A stretch of 64,000 nt of DNA from Noviherbaspirillum massiliense JC206 (GTDB taxonomy: Bacteria > Pseudomonadota > Gammaproteobacteria > Burkholderiales > Burkholderiaceae_D): the NCBI RefSeq assembly GCF_000312045.1, contig NZ_HE978634.1, forward strand, positions 2,164,098 through 2,228,097. Reading direction: 5' to 3'. The position numbers and the translations under genes are program-made. The notes under the pieces are model-generated. The model was given only the letters and a program-made list of their open reading frames with translations. It had not been told where the DNA came from and searched no databases. This document shows positions 9,372-23,412 of this stretch, piece by piece. How positions within the stretch are numbered: position 1 is the first letter of the stretch; each line of letters opens with the position of its first letter.

Positions 9372-10499
9372 TCACCGCCTCTGCATCCGCCACAGCGTGG
9401 CGATCGCCGCCAGCAGGAACATCGCGCTCGGCAGCATCGCCGTGGCTGCCGGCGGCCAGGTATTCAACAGCCCCAGGTGCGAGAACAGGCTGTTGATCAG
9501 TTGGAAGCTCACGCCAATCATGATGCCGATAAAAATCTTCAGACTCACGCCGCCAGTGCGGAAATGCAGATAGGCAAATGGCAGCGCGAGCGCCATCATT
9601 ACCAATATTGCCAGCGGATAAACCACCTTCTTCCAGAAGGCGATCTTGTAGCGCTCGGCATTCTGCTTGTTTTCGGTGAGATACCGGACATAGGAAGAAA
9701 GATCCTTGGCCGACATGCGGTCGGGATCGGCAAACAGCACCGACAGGATGTCGGGCGTGATTTCGGAAATCAGGTTGCGGTTGGGCGCCGTGGTGGTCGA
9801 AACCGCAGTCGATATGTTTTGCGTACTGCCGGAAAAGCTGGTTTCCGACACGTTAGCCAGGCGCCAGGTATGCTCGCCCGCATAATTGGCAGTATCGGCC
9901 GAAACGATCTTCGTCAGGCGGAATTCGGGGTCGAACTCGTAAAGACGGATGCCGCGCAGCTGGCCGTCCGGCCTCACCTCGCGCACATTCACGAAACGCG
10001 AGCCGATGGCTTTGCCGGTCATTCCGTTCTGCCTGATCACATCCTTCGTCCACAAACCCGAGCGGAACTGCTGCGATACTGCGGCACCTTGCACTCGCAG
10101 CTTCAGCTTTTCCGCCATTTCGCTGCTTGCGGGAGCGACGATTTCGCCAAACAGGAAAGTGATCACCATGAGCACGATACCCACTTGCGCCAGGATCCAG
10201 CCCGCCATCCTGGGCGACATGCCGGATGCGCGCATGATCGTGAATTCGGAACGGGCCGCCAGCTGGGACAGCGCGAAAATCGTCCCGATCAGGGCAGCCG
10301 TCGGCATCAGCTCGTAGATGTAACCCGGAAAGCCCAGCAGCACATACAGGAATGCATGATGCAACTGATAACCGCCGCGGCCCACCCTTGGCAATTCCCC
10401 AATCAGTTCGAAAAACGCGAACAGCGCCAGGAAGGCCAGCAGCACGAATACGACGGAGCTGAAGAGCTGGGCGGAAATATATCGCTGCAAGACTTTCAT
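9372..10499 (-). CDS. lptG: LPS export ABC transporter permease LptG
   Basis: A 375-residue inner-membrane permease of the LptBFGC complex, which extracts lipopolysaccharide from the inner membrane for transport to the cell surface. Transmembrane segments group at the N-terminus (about residues 12-120) and C-terminus (after about residue 270), with a periplasmic beta-jellyroll between. The early LGFPGYIYELMPTAALIGTIFAL and RASGM segments are typical of the family. The start at 10499 overlaps the lptF stop by four bases (ATGA); a longer reading to 10646 would run into lptF and is rejected. Confidence 0.93.
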   Translation of the reverse strand: MKVLQRYISAQLFSSVVFVLLAFLALFAFFELIGELPRVGRGGYQLHHAFLYVLLGFPGYIYELMPTAALIGTIFALSQLAARSEFTIMRASGMSPRMAGWILAQVGIVLMVITFLFGEIVAPASSEMAEKLKLRVQGAAVSQQFRSGLWTKDVIRQNGMTGKAIGSRFVNVREVRPDGQLRGIRLYEFDPEFRLTKIVSADTANYAGEHTWRLANVSETSFSGSTQNISTAVSTTTAPNRNLISEITPDILSVLFADPDRMSAKDLSSYVRYLTENKQNAERYKIAFWKKVVYPLAILVMMALALPFAYLHFRTGGVSLKIFIGIMIGVSFQLINSLFSHLGLLNTWPPAATAMLPSAMFLLAAIATLWRMQRR

Positions 10500-13383: not shown

Positions 13384-14880
13384 CTACAGAGCCCCGATCC
13401 GGATCGAAGCGTAGTCATAACACGCCGCCTTCCCTGCTCCGCAAGGATAAGGCAGGTCAAGCCGGCCCTGCCGCTCTATCCGGCTGTCGGGATAGGCATC
13501 CTGCAGCTTCTCCATCCATCCGTCTGCGACTGCGCCGCGCATCAATACGATCACCTGACCTTGCAGGTGCGGACGCTGCTTCAGGACATCGTCCAGCAGC
13601 AGCGTCCGGCGCGCAGGCTGCTGTAGGTACAGACTGGCGGCGGCACGTTGTTCGCTGACGACCAGAACGGACGCATTCGGAAACAGCCTGTCCAGCTGGG
13701 CCGACATGTCCGAATAGGGAGGATCCGTCCGCACCTTCTTGCCTATCATCGGACCAAGGTATCCACGCACGGGAAACGCCAGCAGGATGATGACACCGGC
13801 CACTTGCGCGATCTGCAGAATGCGCCGGGTCACACCGCGCTGCAGCAATACCGGCCACAGCACCAGCCAGGCAAGCGGCAGGGAAAACAGCAGCGGCTGC
13901 AGCCATCGCCCCCTCATTGCGCTGACTTCGCCTGTCAGCACGATTGCAGTGACATAAACACAGAAGGCGGCATGCAGGAGGGCGAAAAACCGCGCCTCGG
14001 GATGGATCATCCCCGGCACCCTCTTCTTTCGGAAGCGCAGCGAAAAGAAACCGTAGACCAGCCATTGCGGAGCGCTGATCGTCAGTGTCGTCAGCAGTAC
14101 GCTGGAAAGGCCGCTTGCCACGTTCGACAGGTAATCGGCGTGACCGCCTTCCCGCATCTTCTCCAGCGTACCCGCGGTCGCGATGCCCAGGTGGTCGAAC
14201 AGCCATACGGCATGCGGCAGGAAAATCAGCAAGGCAACGCCGGCCGCAAGCAACATCCGGCGATTCCACAAGACCTGCCGGTAATGCGCAACCAGCAGGC
14301 TGGCGGTCGCAAGCCCTGCAAGGAAGACTGCGAAATTGTACTTGGACAGCAGCCCCAGCCCGACCAGAAGACCCATCAGGGCATGGCGCCACATGGCAGG
14401 ACGCCGCACAAGCGTGAAATAAAGCCAGAGCGTGGCGGCCGCGATCGCGGTCGACAGCACAGTGTGTGTCAGGTCTCTTTGTGCCTCCCAACTGAATTGG
14501 GGCATCAGCAGCAAGGATGCCGAAGCCGCCATGGCGCCGCCAGCGCCGACCAGCGGTTTGGCCGTGAAATAGATGCAGACATAGAGGGAAAACAGCAACA
14601 GGTTCTTCAGCGCCGCGAGAGCAAACAGGTTTACGCCGAACATCTGGAACAGACACCACTGCAGCCAGTAGTACAAGGGAGGCTGGGTACCGTATCCCAG
14701 ACGCAGCTGCTGCGACATCAGGATTTGCTCGGCTTCGTCAAAACTGAGCGGAGCCGCCAGCCCAATGCGGAACGCGACCTGCAGCACGAAGTAGGCAGCC
14801 AGGCAAAGCAGGAATCCCCTGCCGGAACGGATCAGTCCGGAATCCACGATTGATTTTCGTTCACTCAAGAGAAGAGGCAT
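13384..14880 (-). CDS. GT39/PMT-like integral membrane glycosyltransferase
   Basis: A 498-residue protein with about 11 hydrophobic segments followed by a C-terminal soluble part (after about residue 390). The first periplasmic loop has an acidic DE pair (SFDEAEQ) and then GTQPPLYYWLQW, the layout of GT-C glycosyltransferases that take sugars from polyprenyl phosphate. The acceptor is unknown; lipid A, O-antigen and protein are all possible. It stands alone, not in an operon with the ArnT-like gene 2.4 kb further on, but may act in the same envelope-decoration process. Confidence 0.75.
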   Translation of the reverse strand: MPLLLSERKSIVDSGLIRSGRGFLLCLAAYFVLQVAFRIGLAAPLSFDEAEQILMSQQLRLGYGTQPPLYYWLQWCLFQMFGVNLFALAALKNLLLFSLYVCIYFTAKPLVGAGGAMAASASLLLMPQFSWEAQRDLTHTVLSTAIAAATLWLYFTLVRRPAMWRHALMGLLVGLGLLSKYNFAVFLAGLATASLLVAHYRQVLWNRRMLLAAGVALLIFLPHAVWLFDHLGIATAGTLEKMREGGHADYLSNVASGLSSVLLTTLTISAPQWLVYGFFSLRFRKKRVPGMIHPEARFFALLHAAFCVYVTAIVLTGEVSAMRGRWLQPLLFSLPLAWLVLWPVLLQRGVTRRILQIAQVAGVIILLAFPVRGYLGPMIGKKVRTDPPYSDMSAQLDRLFPNASVLVVSEQRAAASLYLQQPARRTLLLDDVLKQRPHLQGQVIVLMRGAVADGWMEKLQDAYPDSRIERQGRLDLPYPCGAGKAACYDYASIRIGAL

Positions 14881-15208: not shown

Positions 15209-15973
15209 ATGAAGCTTGCCACTTGGAACGTCAATTCACTCAAAGTCCGCCTGCCCCAGGTGTTGCAGTGGCTGGCAGACAATCCGGTGGATGTCCTGTG
15301 CCTGCAGGAGACCAAGCTGACCGACGACAAATTCCCCGTCGCCGAGATCGAGGCTGCCGGCTACCAGGTTGCCTTCACCGGTCAGAAGACCTACAACGGC
15401 GTCGCCATCCTGTCGAAGCATCCGATGAGCGAAGTGGTCAAGAACATCCCGAGCTTCGAAGACCAGCAGCAGCGCGTGATCGCAGCCACCATCGGAGGCA
15501 TGCGCATCGTGTGCGCCTATATCCCGAACGGGCAATCCATCGATTCCGACAAGTATCAGTACAAGCTGCAATGGTTGAACGGTTTGCACGACTGGCTGGT
15601 GGAACAAGGCAAGGCTTACGACAAGCTCGCCCTGCTCGGCGATTACAACATCGCCCCGGAAGACCGCGACGTGCACGACCCGGCCGGCTGGCAAGGCCAG
15701 GTGCTGGTGTCCGACCCGGAACGCGCCGCATTCCGGCGCCTGCTGGACCTTGGCCTGAAGGACGCCTTCCGGCTGTTCGAACAGCCGGACAAAATGTTCA
15801 GCTGGTGGGACTACCGTCAAATGGCATTCCGCCGCAACATGGGCCTGCGGATCGACCACATCCTGCTCTCCCCTGCCCTGGCGTCCCGCTGCAGCAGCTG
15901 CGTGATCGACAAGACGCCACGCAAGTGGGAACAGCCTTCCGACCATACGCCGGTGGTCGCGACGCTGGATTAA
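15209..15973 (+). CDS. xthA: Exodeoxyribonuclease III
   Basis: A 254-residue endonuclease/exonuclease/phosphatase-fold enzyme that repairs abasic sites and trims 3' ends. Visible motifs are [12 protein letters not shown] at the start, LQETKL (metal-binding glutamate), GDYNIAP (active-site Asp/Asn), RIDHIL and the terminal SDHTPV (catalytic Asp-His). ATG 15209 starts exactly at the conserved N-terminus; a longer frame from 15104 adds 35 non-conserved residues and is rejected. AAGGAA lies 11 bases upstream, slightly far. Confidence 0.94.
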
Positions 15974-16158: not shown

Positions 16159-16443
16159 TTAGTCCCCGGATGCCCTGGCAGTTGTCCGTTCCATCTTGAT
16201 CAGGTAAAGATTGCGCAGATAAATGAAAACACCGAGAAGCTGGCCGGCAATGAATACCGGATCGCGACGGTGAATGGAATATACCAGCAGCGTCAGGCCA
16301 CCCAGTACGCTGAAATACCAGAATGCCACCGGAACCACGCTTCTTCTCTGCCGCTCACTCTGAATCCACTGGATGACGAAGCGCATCATGAAAAGTCCCT
16401 GCCCCGCAAAACCGATCACCAGCCACCAGACATCGTTTTCCAT
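16159..16443 (-). CDS. LAB_N (lipid-A-disaccharide synthase N-terminal-like) small membrane protein
   Basis: A 94-residue protein with three hydrophobic helices, matching the LAB_N domain: GQGLFMMRFVIQW, then SVVPVAFWYFSVLGG, then DPVFIAGQLLGVFIYLRNL. It is a stand-alone version of the short domain that precedes LpxB in some bacteria. The family is related in fold to PQ-loop/SemiSWEET transporters, so a role in flipping lipid-linked sugar is conceivable but unproven. ATG 16443 lies one base after the PAP2 stop, with GGAGG 7 bases upstream, so it is the last gene of a five-gene operon. Confidence 0.82.
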   Translation of the reverse strand: MENDVWWLVIGFAGQGLFMMRFVIQWIQSERQRRSVVPVAFWYFSVLGGLTLLVYSIHRRDPVFIAGQLLGVFIYLRNLYLIKMERTTARASGD

Positions 16444-16444
16444 T

Positions 16445-17239
16445 TCAGTTTTCCTCCGCACTTCCGCGCATGCTTCGCCGCGGAAGCATCAGGATCATTT
16501 CGCGCGCGCCCCAGACCAGGCAAATGATGCCAAGCACCCGCTGGAATGCGAGCGCATTGGGATATCTCATATGATTACTTACCAATAATGCCGCCGCGAT
16601 GGCGAGCAATACGATGCCCGCGAGGTAGCCGCCGATCCCGGAGGTTTTCCATGTCCGACGCCCCACCAATGCCAACCCGGCCCATGCCGCCAGCCAGCCG
16701 CCGAGCATCCCGCCCAGCAGGTCGAGCGGCCAATGGACTCCGACCATGACGCGCGACAGGCTGACCAACACCGCAAGAATGAACAACAGCGTGCGCAGCA
16801 GGTAATGCCGGCTCAGACTCATGATCCAGATTCCGGCAACCGCGAAAATCGCGGCGGCATGGCCCGACGGGAAGGCCCGGGCGCGAAAGGCGGGGCCATA
16901 ATGGAAGAATTCCTCCGGCGGGAACACTGCCAGTGGACGCGGCACGTTGATCACATGCTTGATGCCTTGCACCCATAATGCGGCAAAGACTGCCGCAAAC
17001 AGTGCCGCCCAGAAGCGCTGCGGCGATCGCTTGATCCAGGGCGCCACCAGCGCGAGCGCCACGGCGCCATCCCCGAGAATGGTCAGGTTGGCCCACCAGA
17101 CATCGCCCAGCACATGCCCGGAACGATTCAAGGCAAGAAAGAGTTCCCGGTTGCTGTCAGTGAAATAAACGACTCCCAGCAAAACCGATGCGATCAGCGG
17201 AGGCAGCCATGCCCAGGGTGAGTTTCGGTAGCTTTGCAT
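16445..17239 (-). CDS. PAP2-superfamily membrane phosphatase
   Basis: A 264-residue membrane protein with all three acid-phosphatase motifs: KHVINVPRP (K-x6-RP), PSGH, and SRVMVGVHWPLD (SR-x5-H-x3-D). About seven helices are predicted by eye, two beyond the phosphatase core. Relatives dephosphorylate undecaprenyl pyrophosphate or lipid A phosphates on the periplasmic side. In this operon either recycling of the polyprenyl carrier or removal of a lipid A phosphate before glycosylation would fit. It starts 6 bases after the ArnT-like gene. Confidence 0.85.
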   Translation of the reverse strand: MQSYRNSPWAWLPPLIASVLLGVVYFTDSNRELFLALNRSGHVLGDVWWANLTILGDGAVALALVAPWIKRSPQRFWAALFAAVFAALWVQGIKHVINVPRPLAVFPPEEFFHYGPAFRARAFPSGHAAAIFAVAGIWIMSLSRHYLLRTLLFILAVLVSLSRVMVGVHWPLDLLGGMLGGWLAAWAGLALVGRRTWKTSGIGGYLAGIVLLAIAAALLVSNHMRYPNALAFQRVLGIICLVWGAREMILMLPRRSMRGSAEEN

Positions 17240-17245
17240 GATTGT

Positions 17246-18844
17246 TCAGGAAGGAATCCTTACCAGGACGACACCGCCCTTGCCGTACAGGATTTCCGCT
17301 TGTCCCAAGTTCGGTAATTCATCGCTTCGGGTCAGGACCACATCTCCCGGTGCGGGAGCGCTGACCCGCCTGGTCACCGCTTGCCGGTACACGCTGAAGC
17401 TTGGCACGTTGATCCGCCACGCCACCACCGGCACGTTCAGTCTTTGTGCGACCGCAGCGGCTTCCTTCACCGGCCCCTGCTGCAGTTCGCCGACGGCGGG
17501 CAGGACCAGGCCGCCAGCGGCCGCAGCTCCCAGCAGTCCCATCGCGATCAGCCGCTGCCACACTGCGATGCGCGTGGCAAAGACGAGGGCTAGCATTGTC
17601 AGCAGCAGGATCAGGGCGGCCACGTAGTAGGACTGCCCGAACACATCCGGGCGCGTCAGCATTTCGCGTATATAAGTGTTGCGGATGCGCGGTCCGCTCC
17701 ATTGCAGCAATCCGGGCAGCGCCAGCACGATGCCCAGCATCAGCAGAGGCGGCGTGAATGCCAGCCAGCGCGACTGCAGGGATTCCCTGCGCATCGCCAT
17801 CAGCACGAACAGCGGTGAAATGCCATACAACAGGTAATGCGGCAGCTTGGTGCCGGCCAGCGAGAAGAAGATCAGCACCAGCAGAAACCAGGTCCACAGG
17901 AAAGTATCAAGCGGATGCGCCCACATGCGCCGGATGCCCGGCAAGACGCGGAGGAACAGGCCGCTGTAGGGCAACAGCAGCACCAGGCTCATCGGCAGGT
18001 AGTAGAGCATGTTGCCGCTGTGCCCCTGGAGCGGGGACATGAAGCGCTCGACATTGTGGCGCATGAAAAAACCCGCGAGGAATGCCGAACCCTGTTCACG
18101 GTATTCGAGCAGGTACCAGGGGCCGGCCACCACGAGAAAAATGGCCCAACCGACCGGATCGGTCACTGCTTTCCACCAGGAGCGCAGCTTGCCATGCAGC
18201 AGAAACGCGATCGCGCTCGTGGCAAACGGAATGAAGAGCGCGATCGGTCCCTTGGTGAGCATGCCGAGTGCCATCCACAGGAATGCGCGATACCGGTACT
18301 TCTGGAGCGGCTGCTCCAGATAACGGTACACGTCGAACATGGCGAGGACAAGAAACAGGTTCAGCAGCGCATCGGCTGTCGCGGCACGCCCGATGACATT
18401 GAAGCCGAGCGTCGTTGCCGCGATCACGGCAGCCGCATAACCGGTCGTGCGGCCCGCCTGATGCCAGGCAAAGCAAAGGATTGCCAGTATCCAGCCGATG
18501 CTGGCCATAGCGGACGGTAGCCTGAACGCCAATTCATGAATGCCGAACAGCGATACGGAAATCGCCTGCAGCCAGTAGATGAGAATCGGCTTGTCGAAGC
18601 GCAGGTTGCCGTTCAGGTAGGTGGTCAGATAATCCCGGCGCTCCAGCATTTCACGCGTTGCCTCGCTGAAGGCTCCCTCGTCCACGTCGAACAGCGGAAC
18701 CTGGCCGAGCTGGACCAGCAGGCCGACGCAGATGGCGAGCGCCAGCAGCACCGGAAGCGCCGCCGGGGATTGCATCACCCGGGACGGCAGGCTTGCGCCT
18801 TTCCCGGGCAGGAAATCGGTACGGTCGGAGCCGGTCCGGTTCAT
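17246..18844 (-). CDS. ArnT-like GT39/GT83 membrane glycosyltransferase
   Basis: A 532-residue polytopic protein (11-13 hydrophobic segments, then a small C-terminal soluble part). The first periplasmic loop has the ArnT-like acidic motif FDVDEGAFSEATREM and then FDKPILIYWLQ; ArnT uses these to handle polyprenyl-phosphate-linked sugar. Such enzymes move a sugar from undecaprenyl phosphate to lipid A or another acceptor on the periplasmic face. I use ATG 18844, 13 bases after the GT2 stop; ATG 18775 is an alternative and the reading from 18982 overlaps GT2. No arnA, arnB or arnD is nearby, so the sugar is probably not aminoarabinose. Confidence 0.82.
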   Translation of the reverse strand: MNRTGSDRTDFLPGKGASLPSRVMQSPAALPVLLALAICVGLLVQLGQVPLFDVDEGAFSEATREMLERRDYLTTYLNGNLRFDKPILIYWLQAISVSLFGIHELAFRLPSAMASIGWILAILCFAWHQAGRTTGYAAAVIAATTLGFNVIGRAATADALLNLFLVLAMFDVYRYLEQPLQKYRYRAFLWMALGMLTKGPIALFIPFATSAIAFLLHGKLRSWWKAVTDPVGWAIFLVVAGPWYLLEYREQGSAFLAGFFMRHNVERFMSPLQGHSGNMLYYLPMSLVLLLPYSGLFLRVLPGIRRMWAHPLDTFLWTWFLLVLIFFSLAGTKLPHYLLYGISPLFVLMAMRRESLQSRWLAFTPPLLMLGIVLALPGLLQWSGPRIRNTYIREMLTRPDVFGQSYYVAALILLLTMLALVFATRIAVWQRLIAMGLLGAAAAGGLVLPAVGELQQGPVKEAAAVAQRLNVPVVAWRINVPSFSVYRQAVTRRVSAPAPGDVVLTRSDELPNLGQAEILYGKGGVVLVRIPS

Positions 18845-18857
18845 GACATGCGTTCCA

Positions 18858-19952
18858 TCATCCGGCCTCGCGTCCCCGCACAGGCGCAGGCTGCCTCGAT
18901 GCCTGCAGCGTGACTTCGCCTTCCGGCTTGGGTATGCCATGCTGGGCATCGTTCGGGTCGCCGAGGACCGTGCGCACTGCATAGGTTTTCGTGCCGGTCG
19001 ATTCGAAATAGGTACGCGCCAGCATCTCGGTCACGATGCCGGTGCTGATGAACTGCACGCCGATGACTGCAAGCAGCGCGCCCAGCAGCAGCAGCGGACG
19101 GTTGCCGATCGCCTCGCCATCGACAAGCTTGGCCCATGCCAGCGAGGCGAGAATCAGGAAGCCCGCCAGGCCGAACAGCATGCCGATGCGCCCGAAAAAA
19201 TGGCCGGGCTTGGCGCGGAAGCGCATGAAGAAATACACCGAGAGCAGGTCGAGCATCACCTTGAAGGTTCTCGACAGGCCGTACTTCGACTCTCCATGGA
19301 TGCGCGGGAAATGGCTGACCGGTTCTTCCTTGATGCGGGCGGGAGAAGTCACGGTGGCCATCCATGTCGGAATGAAGCGGTGCATCTCGCCATACAGCCT
19401 CACCTGTCTGATGACGGAAGCGCGGAAGACCTTCAGCGAGCAGCCGTAGTCGTGCAGCCGCACGCCGGTGACCGCGACGATCAGGCGGTTCGCCAGCCAG
19501 GACGGCACTTTCCTGAACCACAGGTTGTCCTGGCGCTGATGACGCCAGCCGACCAGCAGGTCCAGGTCTTCCGCCAGCAGGCGGTCGACCATGCGCGGAA
19601 TGTCTGAGGGATTGTTCTGCAGGTCGCCGTCCATGGTAGCGATGATCGTGCCCTGCGCTGCGTCGATGCCGGCTTGCATGGCTGCCGTCTGGCCGAAGTT
19701 GCGTTGCAGGATGATGGCCGAGACATGCTCCGGATAACGCGCGACCGCCTGGCTCAGCCGTTCCGCCGTGCCATCGCGGCTGCCGTCATCGACCAGGATC
19801 AGCTGCCATGGCCAATGCGCCGGCGTCAGCGCGGCATGGACTTGCTCCACCAGCGGTCCGATGTTGTCTTCTTCGTTATAGACGGGCACCACCACCGACA
19901 GCCGGTGCTGCCCGTTGCGCTGCCCTCGCTCGGCATCTGTCTTCGTCCACAT
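18858..19952 (-). CDS. GT2 polyprenyl-phosphate glycosyltransferase (ArnC/DPMS-like)
   Basis: A 364-residue protein with an N-terminal GT-A domain (SVVVPVYNEEDNI, then VDDGSRDGT, then DGDLQNNP) and two C-terminal helices (about residues 265-285 and 300-325), the layout of ArnC, GtrB and dolichyl-phosphate-mannose synthase. It would load a nucleotide sugar onto undecaprenyl phosphate on the cytoplasmic side. ATG 19952 is preferred to the TTG at 19958. It follows the epimerase by 14 bases and precedes the ArnT-like transferase by 13, so donor, carrier loading and transfer are encoded in order. Confidence 0.87.
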   Translation of the reverse strand: MWTKTDAERGQRNGQHRLSVVVPVYNEEDNIGPLVEQVHAALTPAHWPWQLILVDDGSRDGTAERLSQAVARYPEHVSAIILQRNFGQTAAMQAGIDAAQGTIIATMDGDLQNNPSDIPRMVDRLLAEDLDLLVGWRHQRQDNLWFRKVPSWLANRLIVAVTGVRLHDYGCSLKVFRASVIRQVRLYGEMHRFIPTWMATVTSPARIKEEPVSHFPRIHGESKYGLSRTFKVMLDLLSVYFFMRFRAKPGHFFGRIGMLFGLAGFLILASLAWAKLVDGEAIGNRPLLLLGALLAVIGVQFISTGIVTEMLARTYFESTGTKTYAVRTVLGDPNDAQHGIPKPEGEVTLQASRQPAPVRGREAG

Positions 19953-19966
19953 TGGCAAAGGTCCGG

Positions 19967-20977
19967 TTAAGAATGATAGCTTTTGTACCAGTCGGCAAAG
20001 CGGGCGATGCCAGCGGCGAGCGGCGTGGCGGGCGCCCAGCCGGTGGCTTTCGCCAGTTCGCTGGAATCCGCGCTGGTGGCGATCACATCGCCCGCCTGCA
20101 TCGGGCGGAAAATCATTTGCGCCTTGCGCCCGAGCTCCTTCTCGAGGGTCTCGATGAAGTCGATCAGCGCGACGGGCTGCTGATTGCCAACGTTGTAAAT
20201 CCGATAGGGCGCGTGGCTGGTCGCGGGGTCGGGATGGAAGGCATCGAAATCCGGATCCGGGTTTGCCGGATGCCGCATGATGCGCACGATGGATTCCACC
20301 ACGTCGTCCACATAAGTGAAGTCGCGCAGCATCTTTCCTTCATTGAATACTTCGATCGGACGGCCCTGCGTGATCGCATCGGCAAACAGCATGGGTGCCA
20401 TATCCGGGCGTCCCCATGGTCCGTACACCGTGAAGAAGCGCAAGCCGGTGGTCGGCAACCCATATAAATGACTGAAACTGTGCGCCAGCAGTTCATCGCT
20501 TCTCTTGGTTGCCGCGTATACGCTGACCGGATGATCCGCCGGATGATGCTCGCTGAAGGGCATGAGCCGGTTTGCGCCGTAAATGCTTGAGCTGCTTGCA
20601 TACACCAGATGCGACACCCTATGTTTCCTGCAGCTGTCGAGGACATTGGCGAACCCGACCAGGTTGCTCATGATGTAGCGCTGCAGGTGTTCGGCCGGGT
20701 GCCGGACACCGGTCTGGGCGGCAAGATGCACGACAGTGGTAAAACCGCCGGAACGGAACAGCTCATCCACCGAGTCCGCGTCCGCCAGGTCGAGCTCTGC
20801 AAAGCGGAAGCCGGCATGACGAGAAAGCACTGCAAGACGGGCCCGCTGCAGGCCGCCATGCGATGGACCCTGTGTGGCCTGCATGTTGTCGATGCCGACC
20901 ACCTGCTGCCCATCCTGCAGCAGGCGGTGTGCCAGGTGCATGCCGATAAAGCCTCCTGCTCCAGTAACAAGAATCAT
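19967..20977 (-). CDS. NAD-dependent epimerase, UDP-glucuronate 4-epimerase type
   Basis: A 336-residue extended short-chain dehydrogenase. It shows the NAD-binding ILVTGAGGFIGMHLA at the N-terminus, the ASSSSIYG serine and the catalytic YAATK pair. The LRFFTVYGPWGRPDMAP and RDFTYVDDVVE segments are those of UDP-glucuronate 4-epimerases, which make UDP-galacturonate; UDP-glucose epimerases differ there. Substrate remains inferred. ATG 20977 begins the conserved N-terminus. It is the first gene of the five-gene envelope operon. Confidence 0.85.
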   Translation of the reverse strand: MILVTGAGGFIGMHLAHRLLQDGQQVVGIDNMQATQGPSHGGLQRARLAVLSRHAGFRFAELDLADADSVDELFRSGGFTTVVHLAAQTGVRHPAEHLQRYIMSNLVGFANVLDSCRKHRVSHLVYASSSSIYGANRLMPFSEHHPADHPVSVYAATKRSDELLAHSFSHLYGLPTTGLRFFTVYGPWGRPDMAPMLFADAITQGRPIEVFNEGKMLRDFTYVDDVVESIVRIMRHPANPDPDFDAFHPDPATSHAPYRIYNVGNQQPVALIDFIETLEKELGRKAQMIFRPMQAGDVIATSADSSELAKATGWAPATPLAAGIARFADWYKSYHS

Positions 20978-21522: not shown

Positions 21523-23412
21523 TCAGCTCTTGAGTGCGCCTTCGATCTGATGAAGGGCTGACGGATCTTCGATCGTCGGCAAGTCTCCGGGATCACGGCC
21601 TTCGCAGATCGCCTGGATGGCCCGGCGGAGCAGCTTGCCGGAGCGGGTTTTCGGCAGCAGCGTCACGAAGTAGATCCGGGCCGGCCGGCCAAGCGCGCCC
21701 AAGCGTCTGTCGACCACTGCCATGATCTCGCCTTCCAGCGTCCGCCGCTCTTCGGCTGTCGTTGCCGCCTGTGCATTCTTCAGTACCGCGAAGGCAACCG
21801 CGACCTGCCCCTTGAGCTTGTCCTCGATGCCGACCACCGCCACCTCGGACACGTTCGGATGGCTGGAAATGCTTTCCTCGATCTCGCGCGTGCCGAGTCG
21901 GTGTCCCGCGACATTGATCACGTCATCGGTACGGCCAAGGATGAAGTAATAACCGTCCGCATCGCGGATGCCCCAGTCGAAGGTCGAATACGCCTGCTGG
22001 TCCGCGAAGTTGGACCAATAGGTATCGAGGAAGCGCCGGTCGTCGCCATACACGGTCTGCATGCATCCCGGTGGCAGCGGACCTTCGATCACCACCACGC
22101 CCTTCTCGTTCGCGCCGCAGGTCTTGCCCGTCCCTTCATTCAGGATCTTCACCTTGTAGCCGTACATTGGCACGCCCGGGCTGCCAAGCCGCGCCGGCCG
22201 GTCGTCCACGCCGCGCGCGATCGAGAGGATGGGCCAGCCGGTTTCAGTCTGCCAGTAGTTGTCGATCACCGGCACATCCAGCGCGGATGAAATCCATTCG
22301 GAAGTCGATTCATCCAGCGGTTCGCCGGCGAGGTAGAGCGTCTTCAGGGAAGACAGGTCATGTTTCTTCATGAATTCCGGCGGTTGCTTCTTCAGCACCC
22401 GCACCGCCGTCGGTGCCGAGAACATGCGACTGACCTTGTATTTCTCGACGATGCTCCACCAGATTCCCGCATCAGGGCGGATCGGCAGTCCTTCATACAG
22501 GACGGTCGCCATGCCGGCGATCAGCGGGCCGTAGACGATGTAGGAATGGCCAACCACCCAGCCGATGTCGGACGTGCAGAAATAGGTTTCCCCCGCCTTG
22601 CCGCCGAAGATGTAATCCATGGAAGCAGCGAGCGCCACCGCATAACCGCCGACATCGCGCTGCACGCCCTTGGGCTTGCCAGTCGTACCGGAGGTGTAGA
22701 GGATGTAGGAGGATTCATTGGACTCCAGCCAGGTAACGGGAACCTGCGCATCGGCGTGCTTTTCGCGCAGCTCCGCATAATCCACGTCCCGGCCTGGCAC
22801 CCTTTCCATTGCTGCCAGGCCGCGGTCGACGAGCAGCACATGGTCGGGCTTGTGCTGCGCCATGCGGATCGCCTCGTCCAGCAAGGGCTTGTAGGCGACG
22901 ACCTTGCCGCCGCGCGAACCCGCATCGGCGGACACGACCAGCTTCGGCGTCGCGTCCTCGATGCGGCTGGCCAGGCTGTTGGATGCAAAGCCGCCGAACA
23001 CGACCGAATGGATCGCGCCGATGCGGGCGCAGGCGAGCATGGCGAATACCGCTTCCGCAATCATCGGCATGTAGATCAGGACGCGGTCGCCCTTGCCCAC
23101 GGCGAGCGACTGCATCATGGCCGCCGCGCGATTGACTTCGGCATGCAGTTCGGCAAACGTGTATGTCTTTTCGCTGCCGGTTTCGGTGGAGATGGCGATC
23201 AGGGCCGGCTTGTCGCCCTGGCTGCCCGTCCACCGATCGACGGCGTTGTAGCAGAGATTGGTCTTGCCGCCGACGAACCAGCGGGTGAATGGCGGCTTCG
23301 AATAATCGAGCACCCGGGAAAACGGCTCCTGCCAGTGAATCCGCCTGGCCTCGTCAGCCCAGAATCCGTTCGGGTCGTCGACAGAGCGTTGGTAGAAATC
23401 TGAATAATTCAT
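21523..23412 (-). CDS. prpE: Propionyl-CoA synthetase
   Basis: A 629-residue acyl-adenylate-forming enzyme, the usual PrpE length. The P-loop-like YTSGTTGKPKGVQRDVGGY and the C-terminal RSGKLLRR lysine (the site acetylated or propionylated in relatives) are present. It activates propionate to propionyl-CoA, feeding the methylcitrate cycle encoded upstream. ATG 23412 has an excellent GGAGGAGA ribosome site; the reading from 23514 adds 34 non-conserved residues. It is separated from prpD by 179 bases, so it may have an extra promoter, but I could not identify one. Confidence 0.95.
   Translation of the reverse strand: MNYSDFYQRSVDDPNGFWADEARRIHWQEPFSRVLDYSKPPFTRWFVGGKTNLCYNAVDRWTGSQGDKPALIAISTETGSEKTYTFAELHAEVNRAAAMMQSLAVGKGDRVLIYMPMIAEAVFAMLACARIGAIHSVVFGGFASNSLASRIEDATPKLVVSADAGSRGGKVVAYKPLLDEAIRMAQHKPDHVLLVDRGLAAMERVPGRDVDYAELREKHADAQVPVTWLESNESSYILYTSGTTGKPKGVQRDVGGYAVALAASMDYIFGGKAGETYFCTSDIGWVVGHSYIVYGPLIAGMATVLYEGLPIRPDAGIWWSIVEKYKVSRMFSAPTAVRVLKKQPPEFMKKHDLSSLKTLYLAGEPLDESTSEWISSALDVPVIDNYWQTETGWPILSIARGVDDRPARLGSPGVPMYGYKVKILNEGTGKTCGANEKGVVVIEGPLPPGCMQTVYGDDRRFLDTYWSNFADQQAYSTFDWGIRDADGYYFILGRTDDVINVAGHRLGTREIEESISSHPNVSEVAVVGIEDKLKGQVAVAFAVLKNAQAATTAEERRTLEGEIMAVVDRRLGALGRPARIYFVTLLPKTRSGKLLRRAIQAICEGRDPGDLPTIEDPSALHQIEGALKS

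Follow-up and report, generated by a model that had tools for sequence, protein, structure and literature searches.

The stretch of DNA analysed here, a window of 64,000 nucleotides from Noviherbaspirillum massiliense JC206, contains a compact five-gene operon on the minus strand that probably encodes a self-contained system for adding galacturonate to an acceptor outside the cytoplasm, presumably lipopolysaccharide. In the direction of transcription, the genes encode a UDP-glucuronate 4-epimerase-type enzyme (19967..20977, 336 amino acids; Pfam Epimerase PF01370, 1.9e-55), an ArnC/GtrB-like GT2 glycosyltransferase with a hydrophobic C-terminal part (18858..19952, 364 amino acids; Glycos_transf_2 PF00535), an ArnT-like GT-C transferase (17246..18844, 532 amino acids; PMT_2 PF13231, 1.2e-19), an LpxE-like PAP2 lipid phosphatase (16445..17239, 264 amino acids; PAP2 PF01569, 1.5e-18) and a stand-alone LAB_N protein (16159..16443, 94 amino acids; LAB_N PF07578, 4.5e-33). 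All five proteins exceed their Pfam cut-offs, and the intergenic gaps read off the sequence are 14, 13, 6 and 1 bases. An earlier note on this DNA had described the same five minus-strand genes with the same coordinates and spacing, and the open reading frames, the sequence and the Pfam names all match that description. Upstream, an acetyl-CoA-synthetase-like gene stops at 21523, 545 bases before the epimerase gene; downstream, the operon is followed by 185 bases and then by a convergent exonuclease-type (Exo_endo_phos) gene ending at 15973. Between 15900 and 21600, neither promoter-like patterns (2 versus 1.5 in shuffled sequence) nor terminator-like patterns (6 versus 4.9) were found in excess.

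The content and order of this operon recur outside the strain. Named genomes were scanned for LAB_N, and of the 488 relatives the best 80 were taken as named loci; many of these loci come from close relatives, and the counts do not represent independent events. The full order of epimerase, GT2, ArnT-like transferase, PAP2 and LAB_N was found at seven of the 80, all in Massilia (solisilvae, terrae, agilis, horti, sp. Bi118, norwichensis and one uncultured member), with tight spacing as far as approximate measurement allows. Six more loci carry the last four genes without the epimerase (Herbaspirillum sp. SJZ107, M. kyonggiensis, M. phosphatilytica, and Massilia sp. Root133, PDC64 and Root335), and the same four-gene block is present in two further genera (genomes G017 and G032), each of which encodes a close epimerase elsewhere in its genome (49 and 54 per cent, respectively). 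A Nitrospirae contig likewise carries GT2, PAP2, GT-C and LAB_N. Of the genes that flank the operon in the window, none with 150 amino acids or more is shared with the 17 loci compared. Across the window and the seven Massilia loci, the five proteins have correlated pairwise distances (r 0.82-0.95), which fits joint inheritance but plain descent as well. In Noviherbaspirillum denitrificans the five functions are present in rearranged form: GT2, LAB_N and an epimerase of 49 per cent identity share a strand, and PAP2 and GT-C genes, both non-orthologous to those of the window, lie on the opposite one. Within the order, LAB_N is present in 14 of 399 genomes. The earlier note had suggested a search for this gene set in other Burkholderiales, and the Massilia loci show that it is conserved beyond this strain.

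Across the 80 named loci, LAB_N is accompanied by a recurring set of partners, as detected with GT2, GT-C and PAP2 profiles that had been extended from the window proteins across these same loci and so favour LAB_N-type partners. A GT2 gene directly precedes LAB_N at 49 loci, an ArnT/PMT_2-type GT-C gene lies within 3 kb at 57, and a GT2 gene within 3.5 kb upstream together with a GT-C gene within 3 kb is found at 56, in agreement with the earlier grouping of LAB_N with these two gene types. None of the 66 GT2 and 63 GT-C matches falls more than 3.5 kb from LAB_N. A PAP2 match lies within 3 kb at 26 of the 80 loci, and Pfam confirms PAP2 for the nine matches that were checked outside the Massilia-type block. 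A separate set, which may overlap with the named loci, consisted of 20 LAB_N and 20 GtrA regions of Pseudomonadota, chosen by hand to be varied among the 62 and 101 genomes that gave matches (LAB_N occurs in 62 of 398 Pseudomonadota genomes). Here GT2, GT-C and PAP2 were detected in 18, 17 and 6 of the LAB_N regions versus 14, 3 and 0 of the GtrA regions, although the GT-C contrast (17/20 versus 3/20) is partly built in because LAB_N loci had served to build the profiles.

The nature of the transferred sugar is indicated by the epimerase. Its best solved relative in a PDB search is 5u4q (388 bits, nearly full-length alignment), and the window enzyme falls in the 5u4q-like branch; this entry was deposited under the name dTDP-glucose 4,6-dehydratase, which we suspect is wrong. 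Next in rank come 6zl6, which we take to be the Bacillus cereus UDP-glucuronate 4-epimerase in keeping with its residue numbering, and its relatives. Arg190 of the window epimerase, located in a GRPDM motif, aligns with Arg185 of 6zl6. In the B. cereus enzyme, the carboxylate of UDP-galacturonate is described as being held by Arg185 alone (PMC12338863). The host genome encodes four UDP-sugar-dehydrogenase-type proteins that score over cut-off, one of which, judged by its best match (2y0e, 742 bits), is clearly a UDP-glucose dehydrogenase. The operon enzyme is most likely of the UDP-glucuronate 4-epimerase kind and predicted to make UDP-galacturonate; the equivalent of Arg185 and the solved relatives uphold the type assigned in the earlier note. 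The transferred sugar is, with considerable confidence, predicted to be galacturonate (or another uronate).

The same arginine marks epimerases beside LAB_N well outside Massilia. For this comparison the 80 named loci were joined by 12 plasmid regions picked from 19 plasmid records, and the resulting 92 loci were searched with a mixed epimerase profile built from seven seeds, at least four of them with the arginine and two of them (L025 and L160) taken from loci later counted. The search yielded 22 epimerase-type genes, one per locus, and 21 of the 22 have the arginine in an RPDM or RPDL motif, the remaining one being truncated where its locus ends. These epimerases fall in at least two sequence types (GPWGRPDM and RQRPDL/GQRPDM) and derive from Massilia, Noviherbaspirillum, Geobacter, Rhodobacteraceae including Paracoccus, Halanaerobium and other Halanaerobiales, Cetobacterium, Ilyobacter, Hymenobacter, Paenibacillus and Aeromonas. 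At five of these loci a UDP-sugar dehydrogenase gene is also present. Cetobacterium, for example, has a run of GT2, LAB_N, epimerase, dehydrogenase and GT39 genes, and two Paracoccus plasmids carry LAB_N, GT39, GT2 and epimerase. In the Gram-positive Paenibacillus (L162, 1856-5327), dehydrogenase, epimerase, GT2 and LAB_N genes touch or overlap, with no GT-C gene directly behind them.

In the separately drawn Pseudomonadota regions, the arginine was found in all five epimerases near LAB_N and in none of the three near GtrA, so that an arginine-bearing epimerase was present in 5 of 20 LAB_N regions versus 0 of 20 GtrA regions (one-sided chance 0.024). Among the relatives of the host, a close epimerase is encoded in 4 of 4 genomes with LAB_N versus 21 of 56 without it (hypergeometric 0.026), although this co-occurrence adds little because the genes are linked in two of the four. 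The new element is the association of LAB_N with predicted UDP-glucuronate 4-epimerases, which extends over several phyla and also into Gram-positive bacteria.

The two glycosyltransferases point to a lipid-linked sugar donor. The best PDB matches of the GT2 protein are ArnC (9hwj, 175 bits) and sll0501 (5eke, 121 bits), and ArnT (5ezm) is the sole PDB match of the GT-C protein (E 6.2e-20, and 4.4e-37 with the family profile), in which residues D55, E56, D84, K85, P86 and D158 are invariant in a 17-row alignment. At the family level, the operon therefore holds an Rgt-type pair of polyprenyl-phosphate-sugar GT2 and GT-C. The GT2 enzyme would load the sugar on polyprenyl phosphate and the GT-C enzyme would transfer it on the periplasmic side, and a polyprenyl-phosphate route of this kind is very probably the one that the operon serves.

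The PAP2 protein has LpxE (6ebu) as its best PDB match, at E 4.4e-14 with the next match at 2.3e-4 (1.2e-20 and 4.5e-7 with the profile). The residues of the KX6RP, PSGH and SRX5HX3D motif, as given in PMC6581854, are all invariant in an alignment of 17 rows. The enzyme is predicted to dephosphorylate either lipid A or undecaprenyl pyrophosphate, and we regard action on lipid A as having an even chance.

The fifth protein, LAB_N, has about three hydrophobic segments as judged by eye. In a PDB search the top two of its five matches were of SemiSWEET type (we take 4qnd to be a SemiSWEET) and weak, at E 0.13 and 0.16, and 9 of 68 LAB_N members matched MtN3_slv at E of 0.01 or below, again weakly (best 0.0016). 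The Pfam MtN3-like clan is described as including LAB_N together with the SWEET and PQ-loop families (PMC4499210). Since GT2 and ArnT-type GT-C genes stand near LAB_N at 56 of 80 loci, LAB_N is a flippase candidate, and a role as flippase or flippase partner seems somewhat more probable than the contrary. By clan (PMC4499210) it may be distant kin of MPDU1, a PQ-loop family protein reported to be needed for the use of dolichol-phosphate sugars (PMC3281891), which would hold an analogous place in its pathway; MPDU1 differs in being larger and eukaryotic, and its function is described as unsettled (PMC3281891). A search of the open-licence literature, with subscription journals and preprints outside its coverage, returned no proposal of LAB_N as a flippase and no link to galacturonate in the text available. 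In chlamydiae, LAB_N is described as standing next to lpxB in the ancestral arrangement and as fused to lpxB in Chlamydiaceae (PMC3937554), which may be the origin of its lipid A name.

Taken along the pathway, the host's UDP-glucose dehydrogenase, encoded elsewhere, would supply UDP-glucuronate, which the operon epimerase would convert to UDP-galacturonate. At the cytoplasmic side, the GT2 enzyme would then attach galacturonate to undecaprenyl phosphate. LAB_N would carry, or help to carry, undecaprenyl-phosphate-galacturonate through the membrane, and at its periplasmic face the galacturonate would be passed to a lipid acceptor by the ArnT-like GT-C enzyme. Lipid A would be the likeliest acceptor, and the LpxE-like PAP2 enzyme would strip from it a phosphate whose place galacturonate takes, following the logic of RgtE, LpxE and RgtF. 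Each of these reactions is inferred, whereas the content, order and recurrence of the genes, the sequence type of the epimerase, a UDP-glucose dehydrogenase gene and a separate arn-type operon are shown by the sequences. We give lipid A as the acceptor about the same weight as all other acceptors together. The operon as a whole would be a variant of the lipid-linked galacturonate systems, and the core of the earlier note, a galacturonate operon unlike the aminoarabinose (Arn) pathway, holds in every sequence test made.

The Rgt galacturonate system (RgtE, RgtF or RgtD, with LpxE), as described for rhizobia, Oligotropha and Caulobacter, shares with the operon a GT2 loader, a GT-C transferase, a PAP2 phosphatase and a supply of UDP-galacturonate. 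The locus tags of rgtE, lpxE and rgtF run consecutively in Oligotropha; these genes cover the same three functions as the window GT2, PAP2 and GT-C genes, and the lipid A of Oligotropha is reported to bear galacturonate at both ends (PMC7663294). Unlike Rgt, the window operon has the epimerase and LAB_N built in, and its GT2 protein is ArnC-sized with a hydrophobic tail of its own; the likeness of its GT2 and GT-C to the Rgt proteins is one of family level only. Azospirillum lipoferum is listed in the same source (PMC7663294) with galacturonate at the reducing end of lipid A (1-galacturonate), and a plasmid of strain 4B, which may not be the strain studied chemically, carries the order GT2-LAB_N-GT39, although a different gene may be responsible there. 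GtrABS and other three-component glycosylation systems likewise combine a GT2, a small membrane protein and a GT-C, but have GtrA where the window operon has LAB_N, and the 20 GtrA regions lacked the arginine-bearing epimerase. LgmA of Bordetella is ArnT-like. The clustered Lgm genes likewise add a sugar to lipid A, although that sugar is described as glucosamine, with no uronate (PMC4993483).

Several observations weigh against this interpretation. Of the three other positions taken from the B. cereus study and read from the alignment, only T280 is kept in the window epimerase, whereas P85 and Q211 are not. The arginine is also not fully exclusive, as the host's three other epimerase-like genes have Asp in two cases and Arg, in a different context, in one. 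LAB_N is present in only 4 of 60 relatives and in 2 of 15 genomes of the genus, host included, and 13 of the 80 named LAB_N genes (the Dechloromonas type) stand alone without GT2 or GT-C; in one of these (L045, LAB_N at 10001-10264) the neighbours resemble trpS and scpA by eye, and the 12 other loci have open reading frames of similar size. When the LAB_N profile was compared by hhalign with 13 MtN3_slv proteins, the outcome was negative (1.9 per cent), and PQ-loop likeness by profile comparison was dropped; of the fold relationship proposed earlier, the clan assignment and the weak matches stand, but the profile comparison does not bear it out. In a Caulobacter control no LAB_N match was found, while a GtrA match was, despite the rgtE and rgtF homologues that PMC7663294 reports for this organism. 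LAB_N is consequently not obligatory in Rgt-type systems, and a different flippase may serve Caulobacter. For the PAP2 protein, the best NCBIfam model is the undecaprenyl-diphosphatase SepP (59.8 bits, below cut-off). Aquifex LpxE is reported to accept undecaprenyl pyrophosphate as well and to be 14-17 per cent identical to other LpxEs (PMC6581854). Because that enzyme is both divergent and able to take undecaprenyl pyrophosphate, sequence does not decide whether the PAP2 enzyme is specific for the lipid A 1-phosphate.

The same sugar pathway could instead decorate the lipopolysaccharide core, O-antigen or another glycan, with the PAP2 enzyme recycling undecaprenyl pyrophosphate, a substrate that LpxE enzymes can also use (PMC6581854). 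The set of GT2, small membrane protein and GT-C is the three-component layout described for O-antigen modification (PMC11127046), a LAB_N module occurs in Paenibacillus, a Gram-positive bacterium that lacks lipid A, and the PAP2 protein also resembles undecaprenyl-diphosphatase models. Against this, ArnT is the sole significant PDB relative of the GT-C protein and LpxE the best one of the PAP2 protein, and no O-antigen genes were found within or beside the unit. We consider such an acceptor unlikely, but still a serious candidate.

A second alternative concerns the sugar itself, as glucuronate or a neutral hexose might be transferred while the epimerase serves another pathway. The epimerase is missing from the unit in the six named four-gene loci and in G017 and G032, and its top NCBIfam model is GalE, albeit below cut-off (133 versus 262.3 bits). 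However, both four-gene genomes that could be searched (G017 and G032) encode an epimerase elsewhere, and over the two samples the arginine is present in 26 of 27 LAB_N-linked epimerases, the 27th being cut off. This possibility therefore appears quite improbable, and galacturonate is retained as the predicted sugar.

The similarity of the GT2 and GT-C proteins to ArnC and ArnT, their closest counterparts among solved structures, also raises the Arn pathway, and ArnBCADTEF likewise pairs an undecaprenyl-phosphate-sugar GT2 with an ArnT-like GT-C. Scans of open reading frames, Pfam and NCBIfam found no ArnB, ArnA or ArnD within the five-gene unit, which thus differs from ArnBCADTEF in having no aminotransferase, formyltransferase or deformylase. 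The GT2 protein scores 198.8 bits on the ArnC equivalog model (cut-off 529), and is not ArnC by that model, and the GT-C protein scores 131.9 bits on the ArnT model (cut-off 567). Elsewhere on the same contig, at 1.2918-1.2991 Mb, the host genome (4.19 Mb in all) has a cluster of six arn-type genes, of which a formyltransferase (490.2 bits) and a UDP-4-keto-pentose synthase (685.2 bits) score over cut-off; ArnT (223.9 bits), ArnB (306.3), ArnC (352.1) and ArnD (204.4) are best NCBIfam matches below their strict cut-offs, so that the identity of this operon rests on best match and clustering. The host's own arn-type ArnC and ArnT thus also miss the equivalog cut-offs, and the window proteins score lower still. 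The absence of ArnA, ArnB and ArnD that the earlier note had claimed is accordingly true of the locus but not of the genome, while its conclusion that the operon is not the aminoarabinose pathway is sustained. With scores far below the equivalog cut-offs and a distinct, higher-scoring arn-type operon in the genome, the reading of the five genes as an Arn variant or remnant was dropped as extremely improbable.

Carriers that move single sugars on polyprenyl phosphate across membranes are poorly established, and PMC11127046 states that flippase activity had not been demonstrated directly for the proteins that it discusses. A protein of 94 residues that stands beside a predicted galacturonate pathway in several phyla offers a small target for a direct test. 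More tentatively, with the chances falling somewhat short of even, LAB_N could be a dedicated polyprenyl-phosphate-galacturonate translocator, and epimerase, GT2, LAB_N and GT-C together a three-component system untied to lipid A that would span Burkholderiales, Alphaproteobacteria, Halanaerobium, Fusobacteria and Paenibacillus. If LAB_N is such a translocator, it would be a bacterial counterpart of MPDU1, and "lipid A biosynthesis", the label under which many genome records list it, would be misleading. If the proposed pathway is true, both Massilia and Noviherbaspirillum are predicted to have envelopes decorated with galacturonate.

Finally, some minor observations were made at and around these loci. 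In the window, a second PMT_2 GT-C gene (13384-14880, minus strand) without an NCBIfam match lies beyond the convergent exonuclease-type gene and outside the operon. An apparent fusion of GT2 and LAB_N in one open frame (L038, 6604-7716) is probably not real, as its GT2 end looks frame-shifted. Phage records gave no LAB_N match; a phage-like metagenomic contig carries a LAB_N gene 61 per cent identical to that of the window (L017, 3296-3565), with a terminase-like open reading frame recognised by eye and no GT2 match. Two-component regulator genes stand beside the LAB_N modules of Cetobacterium, Thalassospira, Ilyobacter and Hymenobacter (L160, L161, L163 and L164), which suggests control by envelope stress or signals.

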